20,229 bases of DNA from positions 1 through 20,229 of the IMG/VR virus record IMGVR_UViG_3300031840_000054. One strand, written 5' to 3'. Made by a program: the position numbers and the translations under genes. The stretch's first letter is position 1, and every line of letters starts with the position of its first letter. Below, piece by piece: positions 2,537 to 11,602 of the stretch. The stretch comes from a virus. The notes below the pieces were generated by a model. That model searched no databases. It worked only from the letters and a program-made list of their open reading frames with translations, and had not been told where the DNA came from.

Positions 2537-5500
2537 CTATCGCAGGATGACACCCACTGTATCAGGTGGGATATCTGCTTTTTGTCTTAGTTCAGGAATC
2601 ATTGCCAGTCTTTTATCTCTTTCTATTTGCAAGTCTAACAACATATCACTTCTAACATTTGCGTTGATGTCTGTTCTGTTGAGAATCCTATCTCTTCTTT
2701 TTCTCCAATTCCTCATGTATCTTTCTATGGCTCTGACCTGACCTTTTGCATTTAACAGTCCTTGTACTTGGTTTCTGTAAGCGTAGAGTTCATCCATTCT
2801 GCCATCTTCTCTGAGAGAGTTCATGGTGGTCACAGCAGTATTAACCTCTTCTCTGAGTTTATAGAATTGTTGTTGCAGTCCTCCCATCCTTTCTTGATCG
2901 CCAACAAACCTACCAACAACAGGAATTTGTTTGATGTTAGGTGGCATGAGAGGTGTGCCAGTCACTGACCTTGCAAGAGCATCAGTGATAGTCAAGGCAT
3001 AACCTCCTAGTGTTCCTGTGTAGCCTTTGAAGATGTACTCAAGTTTGATTGGGGATATGTTAAATTGTTCTCCTATTAGTCTAAACAATTCATTAGTTGA
3101 CTCTCTTGTTTGATAGGCAGGTTTTTCTTTTTCCATAAAGTAAGGCACTATTTCTGAGTTAGTAAATGAGGCTCTATTAGTGACTGCTTCAAAGATAGGT
3201 TTGATTGCTTGTATGCTTACATCTCCACCTAAAAATGGTATATCAGCAGATGTGCTTAATTGTCTAGATACTGATTCTTTAAAATCTGTAATTGAAGTTT
3301 CAGAAAATGCATCTTCTCCACTAATTAAATCAAAAAATCTTTCAGGTATGGCTTTACCTAACATACCTATTTCAAATGGAATTGGTATATAAATAACATT
3401 GCCACCACCTATAGGAATGATCCAATTGTCATCTCTTTTTTCTAGCTTTTCTGCTTTATATTCATCAGTATCACTAACCAAAGCGTAATACAAAGCAGTT
3501 GTACCAATTAACACAGCCATTCTGCTTAATGCTCTACGCATAATCATGCCTTGTAAATCTTCTAATGAACCACCCTCTTGCAATTTATCTTGTGCAGAAT
3601 ATTTACCAGTAAATGATCTATACAGAACATCTAGACCTTGAACTCTTGCATTTAAAAAAGGAATTGCAGTAGTTAATATTTTAAAAGATGTTGATTGTCC
3701 ACGCCTTCCAAAGTTAATTATTTCTAATCCTTGATAAGCTGCTTCAGATTGAGCCTGAGCTTCTGTGTAATATTTTCCTGTGACTGGATCAATAGATTTT
3801 TTTAATTTTTTATAGACTGCATCTGCTACAGCTTTTCTAGTTGCTCCATCAGATTTAGTTGTTAAGTGACCCAATCCATCCCATAGTTTATAAAATGCTA
3901 CATCAGGTCTCATACCATTATTTGTTGAGAGTCCAGCTCTTCTTCTTGCTCTGTTTAAGAAATCTTTTACATCACCTTCGTCATTTGCAAAGTCATATCC
4001 ACCTATGACTCCAAACTCTTCTAATGAACTTATGTCACCAAATAAATTTTTAAATGAATCTATTACTGGTGTAAATCCTTCACCTCCTAATGGTGCACCA
4101 GAAGTAACTGCTGCAGACAATGTATCTCTTAATACATTAACAAATACAAATCCAGGATCACGAGTTACTGTATCTCTTAATAATCCTGCAGGCATTGCAA
4201 TAGCTTTCATAATTCCATCTACTTTAATACCACCTATAGATTGCATAGCCATAAATAAATCTATGTCTGCAATTTGATAATGTTTTTTATTTCCGTTTTC
4301 AAAAACAAATACACTATTTATTCCTGCTAATTTATTTTTATCTGTAATAAGAGTTGCTTCTTTTATTCCTTTTTCAGGATTATTAAGTTGTTCAAAGTCT
4401 CTTATAAGTTTTCTCATGCCATCATTCTTCATAGCAGCAGTTAAAATAGATAAAGAGTTTCTTGCTATAGCTTCTATAGGATCAACATCAATTTTTTCTT
4501 CAGACCCTTTCATTGGCATATTTAAAGGGTTGTTAGGCAGTGAGCCACCTGCAATGGTAGGTGCAGTAATATTTGCATCATCTACCATAGTTCTATAGAA
4601 AGGATAATAGCTTGAATGTTCTATCCATTTTGCAGCTTGATCTGCATCTAACAATCCTTTTTCAGTAGCAAACTTTACTAATCCATTGTTCCATTTTTGA
4701 TAGTTGTTATATGTTTCTACCACTACTGGATGTTCTCTTTCAATAGTTTCAATAGCTTGTAGTTCTTTAGAAGTAATTGGAGAGGCTATTTCTTCTCCTC
4801 TTTCATTTAATTTTTTAACTCTTTTTAACTTAGCATACAAAGCAAACACACCTTCTAAATCTACTTCAGGATCAGATTGAAGTGCTGATAGTATTTGCAT
4901 TAATCCACCTGTAGAAGTATCACCTTCAATTAATGGGTTATATCTTGTGTTAATTACTAAATCAATAACTTTAGTCAAAGAAGGTAATTTCTCTATAACA
5001 TCTACTGGTATACCTTTTAACAACATTTGTTGAAAAATACCTCTTGCTCTATCTGCCATACGAATTGCAGCTATACTTGCTGTATCTGCAGTGTTATTAG
5101 CTAGTCTAACTTCTTCATTTTCTTCTGATCCTTTAAGTATTCTTTTATCAAGAAGGTCTTTACTATCTATATAACTTTGTCTAAAAGTTTTAAATCTTTT
5201 TTTAATGCTGTTAATAGGGTCAGATGCAAAGTCAATTAATCTTGTGGCTTGTGATTGTTTAGGTGTAGCAACTCCTACTGCATCTGCAGCTTCTTGTAAA
5301 TTAGATGGCATAGCTCTAGAAAAAGTAGGTATGTCATCAGGTGCAGTCTTAAGAGGGTCTTGATTAAACTCTATAGCAGCTTCTAAGGCGATGTCTGAAG
5401 CGTTCATATTGTAAAAAGGTATATCACCCCTAGGTGTTTCTTTTGTTCTTTCTTCAGCTACCTTTACAGCTTCTCTTCTTTTGATGCTTTCATTAGAGTT

Positions 5501-8500
5501 GCCATCGCTAAAATTTCTAGATGCTCTGCTAAACAATGGTATGTCTTGAGGTGATGATTCTAGATATCCTAAATCTATTAAATTATCATAATGACTTTCT
5601 AATTGAGCACTATATCTAAAATCATTTTTTAGATTTGCTGGAACACTTTGTATTTGTTGAATTGAAAATAAAGCAGATTGTTTATCTTCATTATTTAATC
5701 TTTGTCTTTCTTGTATGCCATCTGGAAGAGTAGCTATTGCTAATGCTTGATTTATATTTTGATCATTAATAATATTTGTATCTACAAGTAATTCAACTTT
5801 ATCTGTTAATGATTTTTTAAATTGTGGTAATAAAAATTTTATTCCTAAATCTTCTAAATTATTAGCAGAATATATTTTTTCTTTTTGTGGTAATGCTTTG
5901 CCTGTTGGCTCAAACATAATAATTACTGGTGCATCAATAGCACCATCTTTTTGACCTAAAACTAATCTATGTCTACCTTCATGTCCTATAACTTTTCCAT
6001 CTTCGTTAATAGATAAATAAGGATATGCACCAACATATCTATTCATTCTTCTTGGTAATTTATTAAAAATATCTGGATCAAAATTAGGATTTAAAGCTAC
6101 TGTATCTCCCATAACATCAACATTTTTTGGTTTTTCAGATTTAATTAATTCAAAAATTGTTTTATCAGAAGTCAACATTAAAAAATCATCTATAGGCATC
6201 CTTGTAATAAAAGGTAAAACTAAACGAGAGGTATTTTCAGTTTCATTTTTTGCCCACTCATTTGTATATTCTAAATTTTCTTTTGTTAAATCTAAATATG
6301 CAGGTGAATCTTTAGTAGCTGCTCTACTAAATAAAGGTACTTGTTCTGGAGGTAGATTGTTTCTTTCTTCTACCAGTCTTGCTCTTTGTCCTTTAAGAAC
6401 ATCTATCTCATTAGACATTCTGTTGTAAGAAGCTGTGCCAAGGTATTGACCATCTTGTCGTAAAGTATTTTCTTTAATTTCTATTCGTCTATCAAGGTCA
6501 GCAATTCTATTATCTAACTCACCTCGTTTACTAATCCTTGAGAATGTAGGCACATCTTGTCTAGCTTCATTAAGAGTAACGCCTTCATCTAATATAAGTT
6601 TGTTTTCACCACGAACTCCATAGGTATAAGAACCATTTCTAAGAAGTTGTAGCCATAAATTTTTAACATTTGTAACAGCATCTTTTTTGTTAAAAGCATT
6701 TAAGTTTATTGATGAAATATCAGATTTAAGTGTTACACCATTAATTATTTGTTCTGCTGGTGATTCTAAATACCATGACCCATCATCAAATTTAAAAATT
6801 TGTAATTTATAATTATTAAGTTCTCCATTGTGATAAACAATATCCATACCAGCTTCTTCTGGTTTAGCTTTTGTATATGTAAATGGTTTAGTTACAACTA
6901 CTTCTGTAGGTCTAGTAGCAAAAGGAACTGTATCTGGCTCTTTAGGTTTTTTAGGTTTTTTTTCTGGTTCTATAGGCGGTGCTCTTGGCACTAATGATTC
7001 TAATCCTGTTTGTCCTAAATCTAAAACCTCTGCTGCATTAGATAAAAATGCAGATAATTCAGTATCTAATTTAGCTGGTATTCCTAATATTTTTCTTATA
7101 CTTTCTACAAAACCTTGCCATAAAGTTTTATTATTTTTATATGGAATACTTTCAAGCATTTTTTGAAAATTTCTATTTGTTAAACCAAAAGTAATCATTT
7201 CAGAAACATCTTGTTCTTTTTGTTTTCCTTTTCCAAATAATTGATAACCTATTTCAAATTCTCTAAATGCCTCTAAATTAATTTGAGAAAGATAAGTATT
7301 TTGTTGTATGTATGTATAAGGCACATCTGGATTTTCTTTAATAAATATTTGTGCTATTTCTGCTTCTATAGGATTATTTGCTGCTAAATCAAATAATTTT
7401 TCTGCTATTTCTTTTTGAACCTTAGAATTATCTAATTGTTTAGATGCATTTCTATAGTATTTAATTTTATCGTCATAATGTTTTTTAAGTCTTTTTTGTT
7501 GAGACTGTAATTCTTTATATGCATTTTCTACTCTAGCAAATGATTGAGCATCACCTGTTGCATTACCATCTTTAACAGCAAACATTTGAGCTACTGTTGC
7601 TTGATGAATATTTTCATGTAAAAGAGTTTCAAAATTTACTCCATTATTACTTCTCCATTGATCTTTATCAACATTATAAAAATCGTTAGGATCAGAAATT
7701 TGCATAGATAAAACAGCAGTTCTTTTTCGATTTGTTGCTATAGTTTTTCCGTCTGCTTGTAAAGGAGTTATTTGTCCTCTAAAACTATTTATTTTATTTT
7801 CTATTTCAAAAGGAAATTTATAACCAATTTTTTGCAAATCAAGTAAAGATTTATGAGTTTTTTGAGCAATAATTTTATAATCTTCACTAGGAGAATTATC
7901 TATTAGCCATTTAAGCATTTTAATAGAATCGTTATTTCCTTTTTTTGTGTTTATTACATTACCATCTGCATCAAAAATATCTTGATCTATTACTCCAGCT
8001 TTTTGTAAACCTAATAATATATTAGTTCTTTGTTGTATATATTCTTCATTACTTATACTTCTATTATCAAAAATAGTAGTAGGTTTAGAAGGTGTAACAG
8101 GTGGTGTTGCAACTGGTGGGGTAGTTGGTGTAGTAGTTAATGTATCAAACTCAGGATCAGAAGTAATATTATAAGGTTTAGAACTTATATTAGGGTAAAA
8201 AGTAAAAGTACCATCTTCATATCTTTTTACATCTGCATCAAAAATTTCTTTTGCTTTTCTTCCTTTAACTGTATTTGTATCAAAACCTGCAACTTTTAAT
8301 AATTCTTGTAAAAAATTTACATCACCATCTTCTTCAAATTTTTTTGCAAAGTTTTTTAGGTTTTTAGTTTGCGGAAGAAAATCTCTAAATACTTGATAAT
8401 CAGTAGCATCACCACCATTAAACTCAGAATAATACCTTACTAAGTGATTATAAGCATAAGGATTTTTAAATTTTATAGGAGGATTTTTTCCTTGAGGAAC

Positions 8501-11500
8501 AAGTGTTGTTGGTGCAACTGGTGTTGTTGGTGTTACAGGCGTAGTAGGTGTAGTAGGTGGCGTAGTAGTTGGTGTACTTCTAGGATCAAACGCTAAAGGT
8601 CTAGGACTTGTAGGTTTAACTTTTGTTTCTACTACTGGACCAGTAGGAGTCTCTGCATCATCTTCATAATCGGTCACAACTTGAGCTTGTGCTCTACCAG
8701 CTTGATCTAAGTCTCGTAAGGTTCTTATCTCACCTCTAGCTCTAGCTCCAACTCTACCTGCTTCTATGTCTTGGAATATATCTGCAGCTTTGTTGTAGCC
8801 TGATATCTTCATAGCATTGCCAATGCTTTGGAAGAACTGAACAATCTTGTTATAGATACCTTTAGCTTTAGGTGGTACATCTTTAGCCACTACTTCTCTA
8901 GCTCTAAATAGTTCTGCTATAGCTTCTTCTATATAGATTTCTTCTTTTTTATTTGTACTTGCACCATATTTTTCAATGCCTTTATTTATTCTTTTACTTC
9001 TATCATAAAAAGTTTCTTTTTTTTCAAAGGCTTGAGCATCAACTGCTTGAGGTACTCTTTTATTTTTAACTAAATTCTTTAAATATCTGTATTCACTTTC
9101 TGTAATTAAATCTTTAGCTCGTAAAGCATGAATCATTTCATGATCTAGAATTTTGTTTAATCGTGTTTGTATTTCTGCATCAGTAGCATTGCCATCAGGA
9201 TTAACTGCATTTAATGATAAGAAAATAATATCTGTATTTTTGTCGTATTCTCCTTCTACAGCACCTTCTTCGGCTGTTTCTCTTGTTATTCTAGGATCAA
9301 AAGCTATTTGCCCATCTTGTTCTTTTAATACTGAAGTAGATAAAATGTCATTACTTACAACTATACCTGTATCTTTTAAACCTCTAGCATCTAGAGACTT
9401 ACGCAATTCTTTAGCAAACTTATTGGTTCGCCCTTCTTCTATAGCTTCTGCAAAGTTTATGGTTTGTTCTTCTAGTTGTTCAGGAGGAGTGTAAGGTTCT
9501 TGTCTGGCTGTTTCGTTTTGAACCATTTGTTCAATAACTTCTGGTTTAAGTTCACCTTGGCTTTCTAACCTAGCACGAAACTCTTCAGGAGACTCGTTAA
9601 AGCCTTCTGCTCTTCTGGCAATATCAAACTCAAAGTTAGGTCTAATTTGTCTTACAGAGGTTAAAAATCCTTTCTCTTTACCTTTAACAAACTGTGCTCT
9701 ACCACTTTGATCTAAGTCTCGCAAAAAATCTGAAGCAGCAAGTGTAGATATTTCTCTATTTCCTAAAAAGTTTTGTACATCTTTACCAGTAAATTCAGTT
9801 GAGCCTATGGTTGCTACAAAGTCTGCAGTATCTTTTGCAGAGTAAGCTCTAGGTGCAAAGTTAGGAAATGGGGTTTTAACATTAAAGGAAGGAAGAGAGT
9901 GAAGTTTAGCCAAGAACAATTCTTTTTGTCCTTTGCTCATCTTGGAATAATTTGATTCACCAGTATATAGTTTTGCTGCATAGTTTACAGCAGGAGTATT
10001 GAAGTCTAGTTCTATGTTTTTACCAGCAGCAAACTCTTTAATATATTTTCTAGATGTATCAATGGTTTGTTTGCCATCACGAATAGATGGTATGCCGTTT
10101 TTTTCTGAAGTTTCAAATATTTTGGCTGCAGCATCAGATGCAAACTGATTAAACTGTGATTTGTTTAATAGTTTTTGTGCATCTGCAATGGTGTATTGAT
10201 TTTGAAATGGAAGTTTGTTGTAAGTACCTGCAGTCTCTAGCTCTTCTCTATACTCTTTAAGAGTTTTGTTTTTAGCTTTAGGGTCATACTTAATAATTGT
10301 ATTAATGCCAACAGATATAGAGTTTGGATTTAATAAACTTTCACCAATCCTATATGCAGTAGAACTGTTAATAAGTCCTTGAGAATATAGATCGTTGTTT
10401 AGTTGTTGTATGATTTGTGTTTGTGCAAAAGCATCTTTAACTTTTTTGTTTTCAGCTAAGGCTTCTGCTTGAGTTGGCACTGTTTTAATAACAGGGTTTT
10501 CAAGATTGTTTTGATCCAACAAAGAAAATGTTGAATCGGTATTTTCTATAATTTGTAAGTCAGGTGCAATTGCAGGTTCTACTGGTGCAGGTATGTTTGG
10601 AGCAACTTTAAATGGTTGATCTTGTATTACTGGTAATACACCTTGTTGTTCTGCTAGTTCTGCTTTTTTAGCTTCAATTAATTTATTAGAATCTACTTTG
10701 GCTCGTTCTGCTCTTTCACCTTCTTCATGAGTAGCAATACCTCTACGCTTTTGCATACTGTTAAAGACAAGATCAGCAGTACCACCGACAATACCACCAA
10801 GAGTAAACTCTTCAAATACACTATCTATTAATGGTAGTTCATCGCTGTATAAACCACGAGCAACCATATTTTGTAATAAACTTGCTGCTACTTCTTGAGC
10901 ACCTTCAAATGTTCCTGACTGTGCAGCAGACTTCATGTACTCAAGTATGAGTTGTTTAGTTGGTAAATCTTCTAATGCTTTCCTTGGAACTTTCTTTAAG
11001 ATATTAGCAACAGGCATTATTTCTGTAGCACCTATAGCACCACCAAGTAATGTGGCTACAGTTTCTTTAAAACCACCTACTTCTTCTCCTAATCCTCTAG
11101 AGGCTTCAATAAGATCAGCTTGTTGACCCATACCTGCTGGAACTGCTAAACCTAATGGAATACCATACTGTCCTGCTCTTGCACCTATTGTACCTGCTTT
11201 AGCTAATGCTCCACCTACTACACCAGCTCCTAAAAAAGGAATAAAAGAACCAAATGCACCACCTAGTTTTGTGCTGTATAAATCTTCATAACCAGCTTCA
11301 GGTGCTAGTGCTGAATCTTCTTGTAAATATTTTTCAAAGTCAGTAATGCCTTTATATAAATCGCTGTCATCACCGACATCAAACAAAGCAACTGGACCTT
11401 TAATGGCAGAAGCTAATGTAGCCAAACCTTGTCTAGGTATAGCTTTACCAAACTCAACAGCTCTACCACTAAGTGTTGGTTCATCTATATTAAATCCATC

Positions 11501-11602
11501 ATACTGTCTACTTACAGCAGCAGCTAATTCAGACCTTTTTACAGGGTCTAAATTATCTGGAATTTTAATTACCTTCCCATCAGGCAAAGTTACTTCTTTC
11601 AT
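2537..11602 (-). CDS. Giant polyvalent-type ejection (internal virion) protein, 3021 aa
   Basis: This is the last and by far largest gene of the leftward virion operon, one base after the 531-aa gene. Visible layout: a short N-terminal segment; Gly/Ala-rich hydrophobic segments at about 113-160, 181-203 and 263-281; a metallopeptidase-like domain with HEMIH (821-825) and E893 or E897; Pro/Thr linkers near 1008-1033 and 1155-1175; a second HExxH (1329-1333) with E1468; a Lys/Pro-rich linker near 1550; a ParB/Srx-like GHEGRHR (1873-1879); and a C-terminal region of about 900 residues around RDPGFVFVNVLRDTLSA (from 2481) that resembles LPD38 of large polyvalent proteins. Established knowledge: polyvalent proteins of phages and conjugative elements are thought to enter the recipient with the DNA, and T7 gp16, P22 gp16 and N4 vRNAP are ejected last-gene giants. 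Ejection and the individual activities here are inferred. No polymerase motif was recognised. Confidence 0.85.
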   Translation of the reverse strand: MKEVTLPDGKVIKIPDNLDPVKRSELAAAVSRQYDGFNIDEPTLSGRAVEFGKAIPRQGLATLASAIKGPVALFDVGDDSDLYKGITDFEKYLQEDSALAPEAGYEDLYSTKLGGAFGSFIPFLGAGVVGGALAKAGTIGARAGQYGIPLGLAVPAGMGQQADLIEASRGLGEEVGGFKETVATLLGGAIGATEIMPVANILKKVPRKALEDLPTKQLILEYMKSAAQSGTFEGAQEVAASLLQNMVARGLYSDELPLIDSVFEEFTLGGIVGGTADLVFNSMQKRRGIATHEEGERAERAKVDSNKLIEAKKAELAEQQGVLPVIQDQPFKVAPNIPAPVEPAIAPDLQIIENTDSTFSLLDQNNLENPVIKTVPTQAEALAENKKVKDAFAQTQIIQQLNNDLYSQGLINSSTAYRIGESLLNPNSISVGINTIIKYDPKAKNKTLKEYREELETAGTYNKLPFQNQYTIADAQKLLNKSQFNQFASDAAAKIFETSEKNGIPSIRDGKQTIDTSRKYIKEFAAGKNIELDFNTPAVNYAAKLYTGESNYSKMSKGQKELFLAKLHSLPSFNVKTPFPNFAPRAYSAKDTADFVATIGSTEFTGKDVQNFLGNREISTLAASDFLRDLDQSGRAQFVKGKEKGFLTSVRQIRPNFEFDIARRAEGFNESPEEFRARLESQGELKPEVIEQMVQNETARQEPYTPPEQLEEQTINFAEAIEEGRTNKFAKELRKSLDARGLKDTGIVVSNDILSTSVLKEQDGQIAFDPRITRETAEEGAVEGEYDKNTDIIFLSLNAVNPDGNATDAEIQTRLNKILDHEMIHALRAKDLITESEYRYLKNLVKNKRVPQAVDAQAFEKKETFYDRSKRINKGIEKYGASTNKKEEIYIEEAIAELFRAREVVAKDVPPKAKGIYNKIVQFFQSIGNAMKISGYNKAADIFQDIEAGRVGARARGEIRTLRDLDQAGRAQAQVVTDYEDDAETPTGPVVETKVKPTSPRPLAFDPRSTPTTTPPTTPTTPVTPTTPVAPTTLVPQGKNPPIKFKNPYAYNHLVRYYSEFNGGDATDYQVFRDFLPQTKNLKNFAKKFEEDGDVNFLQELLKVAGFDTNTVKGRKAKEIFDADVKRYEDGTFTFYPNISSKPYNITSDPEFDTLTTTPTTPPVATPPVTPSKPTTIFDNRSISNEEYIQQRTNILLGLQKAGVIDQDIFDADGNVINTKKGNNDSIKMLKWLIDNSPSEDYKIIAQKTHKSLLDLQKIGYKFPFEIENKINSFRGQITPLQADGKTIATNRKRTAVLSMQISDPNDFYNVDKDQWRSNNGVNFETLLHENIHQATVAQMFAVKDGNATGDAQSFARVENAYKELQSQQKRLKKHYDDKIKYYRNASKQLDNSKVQKEIAEKLFDLAANNPIEAEIAQIFIKENPDVPYTYIQQNTYLSQINLEAFREFEIGYQLFGKGKQKEQDVSEMITFGLTNRNFQKMLESIPYKNNKTLWQGFVESIRKILGIPAKLDTELSAFLSNAAEVLDLGQTGLESLVPRAPPIEPEKKPKKPKEPDTVPFATRPTEVVVTKPFTYTKAKPEEAGMDIVYHNGELNNYKLQIFKFDDGSWYLESPAEQIINGVTLKSDISSINLNAFNKKDAVTNVKNLWLQLLRNGSYTYGVRGENKLILDEGVTLNEARQDVPTFSRISKRGELDNRIADLDRRIEIKENTLRQDGQYLGTASYNRMSNEIDVLKGQRARLVEERNNLPPEQVPLFSRAATKDSPAYLDLTKENLEYTNEWAKNETENTSRLVLPFITRMPIDDFLMLTSDKTIFELIKSEKPKNVDVMGDTVALNPNFDPDIFNKLPRRMNRYVGAYPYLSINEDGKVIGHEGRHRLVLGQKDGAIDAPVIIMFEPTGKALPQKEKIYSANNLEDLGIKFLLPQFKKSLTDKVELLVDTNIINDQNINQALAIATLPDGIQERQRLNNEDKQSALFSIQQIQSVPANLKNDFRYSAQLESHYDNLIDLGYLESSPQDIPLFSRASRNFSDGNSNESIKRREAVKVAEERTKETPRGDIPFYNMNASDIALEAAIEFNQDPLKTAPDDIPTFSRAMPSNLQEAADAVGVATPKQSQATRLIDFASDPINSIKKRFKTFRQSYIDSKDLLDKRILKGSEENEEVRLANNTADTASIAAIRMADRARGIFQQMLLKGIPVDVIEKLPSLTKVIDLVINTRYNPLIEGDTSTGGLMQILSALQSDPEVDLEGVFALYAKLKRVKKLNERGEEIASPITSKELQAIETIEREHPVVVETYNNYQKWNNGLVKFATEKGLLDADQAAKWIEHSSYYPFYRTMVDDANITAPTIAGGSLPNNPLNMPMKGSEEKIDVDPIEAIARNSLSILTAAMKNDGMRKLIRDFEQLNNPEKGIKEATLITDKNKLAGINSVFVFENGNKKHYQIADIDLFMAMQSIGGIKVDGIMKAIAMPAGLLRDTVTRDPGFVFVNVLRDTLSAAVTSGAPLGGEGFTPVIDSFKNLFGDISSLEEFGVIGGYDFANDEGDVKDFLNRARRRAGLSTNNGMRPDVAFYKLWDGLGHLTTKSDGATRKAVADAVYKKLKKSIDPVTGKYYTEAQAQSEAAYQGLEIINFGRRGQSTSFKILTTAIPFLNARVQGLDVLYRSFTGKYSAQDKLQEGGSLEDLQGMIMRRALSRMAVLIGTTALYYALVSDTDEYKAEKLEKRDDNWIIPIGGGNVIYIPIPFEIGMLGKAIPERFFDLISGEDAFSETSITDFKESVSRQLSTSADIPFLGGDVSIQAIKPIFEAVTNRASFTNSEIVPYFMEKEKPAYQTRESTNELFRLIGEQFNISPIKLEYIFKGYTGTLGGYALTITDALARSVTGTPLMPPNIKQIPVVGRFVGDQERMGGLQQQFYKLREEVNTAVTTMNSLREDGRMDELYAYRNQVQGLLNAKGQVRAIERYMRNWRKRRDRILNRTDINANVRSDMLLDLQIERDKRLAMIPELRQKADIPPDTVGVILR
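5315..5335 (-). other. DIPTFSR motif, copy 4 (residues 2090-2096)
   Basis: This copy sits directly before the C-terminal LPD38-like region of about 925 residues. The serine codon is TCT, and it is followed by Ala-Met-Pro. Confidence 0.7.
5525..5545 (-). other. DIPLFSR motif, copy 3 (residues 2020-2026)
   Basis: This copy ends the ParB/Srx-like segment and starts a short charged linker of about 63 residues. The serine codon is AGC, and it is followed by Ala-Ser. Confidence 0.7.
5966..5983 (-). other. ParB/sulfiredoxin-like GHEGRHR motif in the giant protein
   Basis: Residues 1874-1879 read H-E-G-R-H-R, preceded by I-N-E-D-G-K-V-I-G and followed by a hydrophobic helix, a Gly-Ala turn and A-P-V-I-I-M. 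This strand, EGRHR, helix, G-x2-(A/V)-P-V arrangement resembles the nucleotide-binding core of ParB/Srx-fold domains, which are known in polyvalent proteins. The fold assignment is inference from the motif only. Confidence 0.5.
6323..6343 (-). other. QVPLFSR motif, copy 2 (residues 1754-1760)
   Basis: This copy sits between the short coiled coil (about 1690-1753) and the segment with the ParB/Srx-like motif. The serine codon is AGT, and it is followed by Ala-Ala. Confidence 0.7.
6536..6556 (-). other. DVPTFSR motif, copy 1 (residues 1683-1689)
   Basis: First of four related heptapeptides of pattern (D/Q)-(I/V)-P-(L/T)-F-S-R in the giant protein. It ends the segment after the second zincin and precedes a short coiled coil. 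The serine codon is TCA. Confidence 0.7.
7601..7618 (-). other. Second zincin active site (HENIH) in the giant protein
   Basis: Residues 1329-1333 read His-Glu-Asn-Ile-His, preceded by Leu-Leu and followed by Q-A-T. About 135 residues on comes V-S-E1468-M-I-T-F-G-L-T-N, then LWQGFVESIRKILG, an arrangement typical of phage zincins with a distant third ligand. It is unrelated in local sequence to the HEMIH domain, so this is not a simple duplication. Confidence 0.7.
8077..8141 (-). repeat. Second Pro/Thr-rich linker in the giant gene
   Basis: A second Thr/Pro-rich stretch (about residues 1155-1175), similar in composition to 8503-8577. The two bracket a domain of about 120 residues and precede the second zincin region. 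Confidence 0.65.
8503..8577 (-). repeat. Pro/Thr-rich linker repeat in the giant gene
   Basis: Low-complexity coding repeat built from Thr-Pro and Thr-Thr-Pro units (about residues 1009-1033) with Val and Ala interruptions. It separates the first zincin region from the following segment and is probably an extended interdomain linker. The short GT-rich units are prone to slippage. Confidence 0.75.
8687..8719 (-). repeat. LRDLDQAGRAQ repeat, copy 2 (residues 962-972)
   Basis: This 33-base stretch matches 9692-9724 at 29 of 33 positions and encodes the same undecapeptide except Ala for Ser. It lies just after the first zincin domain and before the first Pro/Thr linker. Confidence 0.75.
9125..9142 (-). 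other. First zincin active site (HEMIH) in the giant protein
   Basis: Residues 821-825 read His-Glu-Met-Ile-His, followed by Ala-Leu-Arg and an E-S-E-Y-R helix. A downstream EEAIAELFR (892-900) can supply the third zinc ligand, E893 or E897. The pattern of HE.(V/I)HALR, an acidic/aromatic helix and later E.(I/V)AE.FR is one I associate with peptidases embedded in phage polyvalent proteins. All expected catalytic residues are present. Confidence 0.75.
9692..9724 (-). repeat. LRDLDQSGRAQ repeat, copy 1 (residues 627-637)
   Basis: Partner of 8687-8719, in direct orientation about 1 kb away. It lies before the first zincin domain, so the two copies bracket residues 638-961. Confidence 0.75.

Follow-up and report, generated by a model that had tools for sequence, protein, structure and literature searches.

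The window analysed here is a 20,229-base stretch of DNA from an IMG/VR virus record (IMGVR_UViG_3300031840_000054), and it carries on its minus strand a run of virion genes, the last of which (2537..11602) encodes a giant polyvalent protein of 3021 amino acids. Based upon comparison with its relatives in ocean viruses, we propose, at a probability of about 0.8, that this giant is a polyprotein of effectors carried in the virion and that it processes itself: an embedded zincin domain (zincin-1) would cut at a heptapeptide found in the linkers, freeing exchangeable modules. The proposal is carried principally by the finding that, in the core family of giants, the peptide and the active site of zincin-1 disappear together. 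The giant shows two features of a polyvalent protein: LPD38 (PF18857) was matched in Pfam with E=1.2e-32 and a score of 114 bits against a cut-off of 27, and the chain contains several unrelated domains, among them two HExxH domains, the two zincins correctly recognized in an earlier note on this DNA.

The heptapeptides and their distribution

Four heptapeptides are present on the minus strand, exactly where the earlier note had placed them, namely DVPTFSR (site 1, residues 1683-1689, 6536..6556), QVPLFSR (site 2, residues 1754-1760, 6323..6343), DIPLFSR (site 3, residues 2020-2026, 5525..5545) and DIPTFSR (site 4, residues 2090-2096, 5315..5335), the last forming the junction with the LPD38 region. 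Using the pattern [DQNE][ILVM]P[LTNRKAS][FYW]S[RK], the four matches in the giant protein compare with 0.002 expected, and four or more were obtained in none of 20,000 shuffles. The weaker copy DTVPFATR (residues 1557-1564), which had been listed beside them, was dropped as a further site; it is limited to the window protein and its closest relative and lies off the family consensus. In an AlphaFold2 (AF2) model that is weak as a whole (25 sequences, mean predicted local distance difference test score, pLDDT, of 52.8), all four sites fall in coil of pLDDT <50 between a confident helical hairpin and other elements; burial in a folded core, named earlier as a sign against cleavage, was seen for none of them.

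Scans of IMG/VR using three parts of the giant (N-terminal half, middle and C-terminal region) and three alignments (one of zincin-1 and two of LPD38) gave about 100 distinct related proteins. Cultured phages yielded distant LPD38 kin only (about 22-26% identity), and a search for zincin-1 among them found none; the syntenic large genes of HTVC027P, HTVC023P, CRP-901 and DSL-LC04 are without zincin-1, LPD38 similarity or sites, and a profile search of genome contigs with the LPD38 alignment returned no matches. One relative with five sites (L201, NZIO01000027.1) is located on a contig assigned to the bin Candidatus Pelagibacter MED605, a hint at either a SAR11 host or a co-binned phage.

The motif search of homologous giants proposed in the earlier note revealed the peptide at module edges throughout the core family. 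There are 108 strict matches, all of them between zincin-1 and the LPD38 region, and none elsewhere (N-terminal part, LPD38 region) in 105,634 residues, with 0.08 expected by chance over the whole proteins; such repetition of a conserved site at module junctions is what a self-processing polyprotein would display. The collected sites comprise 44 distinct heptapeptides with the consensus [D/Q/E][I/V/L]P[L/T/N][F/Y/W]S[R/K], of which the P, the aromatic residue and the S are partly set by the search pattern, and the D, I, L/T and R less so. A direct pattern scan of DNA gave 31 loci, the clear real cases being family members only, and the motif is absent from the LPD38 relatives that are without zincin-1 (Pondi, Vibrio 1.232.O, Planktothrix Pag-Yong1, others, and L075-L082). 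L[AS]PLYSRPE, within the LPD38 region of L065, L068 and L070, was excluded as a chance match, relatives reading TAPLYADP there. In L103, L108, L111 and L112, the last residues of the giant are a site-like [ND]IP[IV]FSLNL.

Zincin-1 and the sites are lost together

Zincin-1 (residues 709-961; 8720..9478, minus strand) is the predicted processing protease, as judged from an alignment of 59 relatives, an AF2 model and its co-loss with the sites. It possesses an HEMIH motif at residues 821-825 (9128-9142, minus strand) and a third ligand, E893 (8924-8926, minus strand). The AF2 model of the domain (pLDDT 80; predicted template modelling score 0.73) has a mixed fold; the HExxH sits on one long helix, and the third ligand on another further along the chain. 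Its nearest viral model hits include another large protein of polyvalent type, with E 4e-7 for an unnamed protein and 1.6e-4 for an LPD protein. The peptide RDLDQ[SA]GRAQ occurs twice in the giant, before zincin-1 (residue 628) and just after it (residue 963); only the window protein and its closest relatives have it, and the second of these positions reads RTLRELD in other members.

The co-distribution of protease and peptide was examined in those 54 core-family giants in which a zincin-1 domain (profile score >250) is accompanied by the beginning of the LPD38 region. Every one of the 46 whose active site is intact (H-E-H-E) carries between one and five sites, whereas none of the eight with a destroyed active site carries any, and no discordant case occurs in the core family; after clustering at 90%, 27 intact proteins with sites stand against 7 dead proteins without. 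In a first comparison the site-less clade of L015, L016, L018 and L066 seemed to be without zincin-1, but in the sequences the domain is present with its active site destroyed: D(G/A)QVIHAFR stands in place of DHEMIHAFR, and Ser or Asn in place of the third-ligand Glu. Among the dead proteins as a whole, HEMIH has decayed to GQVIH, AQVIH, GQIIH, GNVIE, GDLIK or KEVVS and the third Glu to S, N or D (residue sets GQHS, GQHN, AQHS, GNES, GDKD and KESD). The existence of homologues lacking the motif had been foreseen as a case against cleavage. Such homologues do exist, but in the core family they are exactly the members whose zincin-1 is destroyed, and thus they lend support to cleavage instead.

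A tree of the LPD38 region only places the loss of zincin-1 in three positions (L142/L124/L130/L133; L140/L143; and L139). A single clade of losers was rejected (approximately unbiased test, p-AU 7e-7), and the branches with strong support require two or more losses, each event involving several protease residues plus all of the sites. At the orthologous junction that precedes the LPD38 region, conservation of the site Ser is 96% among proteins with intact zincin-1 versus 14% among those with dead zincin-1, and that of the site Arg 59% versus 0%. The core TPRG.IP.YN.NASD, upstream of this junction, is conserved nearly alike in the two groups; therefore, the site decays and its surroundings do not. 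Taken as an evolutionary association, these data suggest that the sites depend upon an active protease embedded in the same chain.

Proteins with dead zincin-1 also keep their modules: M7 is retained in L142 (59% over 201 amino acids), M12 in L139 (54% over 142 amino acids) and M1 in all eight. This bears upon docking, the other role raised in the earlier note: the peptide might stay uncut and act as a tag for docking or packaging, to which zincin-1 or another virion protein binds. Repeated linear motifs in linkers can serve as docking sites, and the C-terminal tails resembling the site would suit such a role. However, one tag per chain would suffice unless the chain is cut, and modules persist without the peptide exactly where zincin-1 has lost active-site residues, which pure docking does not need. 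Docking is consequently the poorer fit, and we regard it as unlikely.

Less probable again is cutting by a host protease or another phage protease, with zincin-1 acting elsewhere and being co-lost by coincidence or through one functional change. Cutting of head proteins by a separate prohead protease is common among phages (PMC10052503, PMC12810830), but a scan of the neighbouring virion open reading frames for the motif found only matches resembling spurious antisense frames, and such a protease would not explain why the sites disappeared each time that the zincin-1 active site was lost, two to three times independently.

The second zincin region (7163..7930, minus strand, limits approximate; HENIH at residues 1329-1333, 7604-7618) matches PHROG 2206, the N4-type virion RNA polymerase family, over residues 1301-1524 (E=7.6e-8). 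All eight site-less proteins have an intact zincin-2, nine proteins with three to five sites (six after clustering) have none, and by this double dissociation zincin-2 was rejected as the processing protease. Of the two candidate proteases put forward previously, zincin-1 is thus implicated by its co-loss with the sites and zincin-2, which shows no link to them, is not. A third HExxH-like string, HEGRH (residue 1874), is probably part of the ParB/Srx-like module described below and no protease. In L067/L123 and L069/L106 a second zincin-2-like copy and a coiled coil are found inside a site-bounded module, M14, apparently as a duplicated internal block.

Modules, their exchange and the gene neighbourhood

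The segments that the copies had been said to delimit are indeed found between the sites, all on the minus strand. Sites 1 and 2 enclose module M13, a 64 amino acid helical hairpin (coiled coil) identified from the AF2 model and module comparison (6344..6535). Between sites 2 and 3 lies M4, the ParB/Srx-like module (5546..6322), assigned by the motif GHEGRHR only, and between sites 3 and 4 lies M1, a conserved 63 amino acid segment containing TPRG.IP.YN.NASD (5336..5524), which adjoins the C-terminal region with LPD38 (residues 2097-3021, 2540..5314; LPD38 proper, residues 2713-2887).

In the stretch from zincin-1 to the LPD38 region, relatives hold differing sets of modules, each edged by the peptide. 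Clustering with two-sided coverage gave about 20 module types, arranged in many orders: M13, M4, M1 in the window; M13, M6, M2, M1 in L084/L009; M6, M4, M1 in L122/L021; M12, M7, M4, M2, M1 in L090/L019; and M1 alone in others. In L185, L189, L191-L193 and L196-L199, one large conserved middle segment (GIFGITSAQ, HMLRKFG) replaces the small modules. Most modules, M4 included, gave no match in a Pfam search. By eye, M2, M7 and M9 resemble folds of the ADP-ribosyltransferase type, and M15 resembles a GNAT acetyltransferase; of these four, M15 is the one with family support, having a weak GNAT resemblance in Pfam and matching regions of PHROGs 10691 and 11975.

Module swaps break at the sites. 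The DNA of the window and L084 is 98.7% identical as far as nucleotide 687 in the stretch compared, just beyond site 2 (664-684). From there similarity is lost until 1461, one base ahead of the start of site 3 (1462). Sites 2 and 3 are hence the two breakpoints of the swap with L084/L009. L084 and L122 show 95% DNA identity over 655-1019, with sites at 664 and 997, and their LPD38 regions are about 58% identical in protein. The blastn breakpoints lie within a few bases of the sites, and 26 of 174 module pairs exceed the identity of the backbone by more than 15 points, the maximum being 46. Sites in different places share 27-33 nucleotides at 88-93% identity, which suggests that the site itself guides recombination.

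The serine codons of the four sites in the window are TCA, AGT, AGC and TCT, as had been noted, and from this it had been argued that the peptide, not a DNA copy, is conserved. That argument holds for the copies within the window, whose codons differ, but not for neighbouring lineages, given the shared site DNA and the swaps that break exactly at the sites. A role as DNA-level joint only, a short homology for module recombination whose protein sequence does nothing, could draw upon these same two observations but is the most improbable of the alternatives, since copies within one gene differ in codons, the peptide is kept across relatives with a backbone identity of about 50-60%, and its loss tracks the protease active site, which is unexpected for a DNA joint.

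In the virion run on the minus strand, the giant follows genes for lysozyme, a protein of stabilization type (PHROG 3287) and one of ejection type (PHROG 4287). In the related podovirus DSL-LC04, a 'DNA transfer protein' occupies the place of the giant, downstream of the stabilization gene. A small convergent gene on the plus strand (672-992) matches a RecA-dependent nuclease family (PF16786, E=1e-20).

Proposed processing and its significance

We envisage that the giant would be synthesised as a single chain holding both zincins in its N-terminal part, and that zincin-1, in the same molecule or its twin, would recognise [D/Q]-[I/V/L]-P-x-[F/Y/W]-S-[R/K] in the linkers and cut at or beside it. 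The pieces freed would be the coiled coil, the ParB/Srx-like module, the 63 amino acid segment and the LPD38 C-terminal region, the N-terminal part keeping both zincins; if the cut follows the Arg, fragments of about 187.7, 8.3, 30.2, 7.8 and 103.0 kDa are predicted. Perhaps cutting takes place around packaging, within the head or after ejection, and the released modules may act as separate effectors entering the host with the DNA. The sites would double as joints for the exchange of whole modules between related phages, so that any arriving module would be edged by cut sites. Whether this amounts to a general design, a cassette polyprotein in which a zincin and a seven-residue cut site define an open slot, the cut site serves as recombination joint and modules are released without further adaptation, is a question on which we are evenly balanced.

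The interpretation of the heptapeptides as cleavage sites is strongly supported by the comparative data, both site and zincin-1 co-distribution and junction placement, and several points weigh against the self-processing polyprotein. That the chain is cut at the sites is what we infer from comparing sequences, and the independent losses of zincin-1 appear to number only two to three. Zincin-1 gave no match above the cut-off in Pfam and no significant one among PDB folds, where the top hits were zincin metalloproteases of lethal-factor type (best E=0.19, not significant), and because of this it is without a named peptidase family (Pfam or M34-type fold). For the site region, the AF2 model is built on 25 sequences and has low confidence. 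In an outer sister clade (L185, L186, L189, L191-L193, L196-L199 and L074/L146), whose LPD38 regions are about 38-42% identical, zincin-1 is intact and the junctions carry few canonical peptides, reading instead ETPSYSR, LTPKFSR, DIPTFKR, DIPAFKI, QVPSLSSR or DIPILKR. Because of these diverged peptides the strict rule linking sites to zincin-1 is limited to the core family; the divergence can be co-drift of protease and site. Finally, in the subclade of L105, L116, L129 and L131, zincin-1 is intact and some junctions have drifted (QLPLFSE, QMELFQE, DIPRWSA).

Polyvalent proteins, including P1 DdrB and the N4 virion RNA polymerase, are like the giant in being very large and multidomain, in having LPD38 and zincin-like domains and, probably, in being linked to the virion (PMC5512222). 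In the passages available from that paper, Iyer et al. 2017 suggest that embedded zincins may autoprocess polyvalent proteins, draw the analogy to polyproteins and note domain shuffling in Helicobacter prophages. Its main text names no cleavage-site motif (no passage on FSR, linkers or cleavage sites), whereas the giant has a defined site; which zincin cuts, and cassettes bounded by sites, are likewise not described in those passages and are both proposed here for the giant. In the head maturation of giant and T4-like phages, a phage protease likewise cleaves ejected internal proteins at short motifs: gp245 of SPN3US is a prohead protease cutting after AXE (PMC10052503), and P1 Pro cuts DarA (PMC12810830). 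Those proteases are separate and act in trans on many head proteins, whereas in the giant the candidate zincin is part of the very chain to which the motif is restricted. A literature search on phage polyproteins, largely without subscription papers, found nothing beyond the work on zincin autoprocessing and prohead proteases. MARTX toxins offer an analogy, in that exchangeable effector domains are freed by a protease within the same chain; they differ from the giant in protease class and delivery route. Self-processing by zincins had thus been proposed already for polyvalent proteins, while the site, the assignment of the cutting to one zincin and the logic of cassettes appear to be new.

Ever since the 2017 proposal it has been an open question if polyvalent proteins are processed and, if so, at which places. 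The giant supplies a concrete candidate cut site and names one protease of two, and its family adds predicted fragment sizes and natural loss-of-function relatives. The sites would provide a rule for dividing unannotated giants of marine phages into single modules for functional tests, and they illustrate how phages may exchange early-infection effectors as ready-made cassettes.

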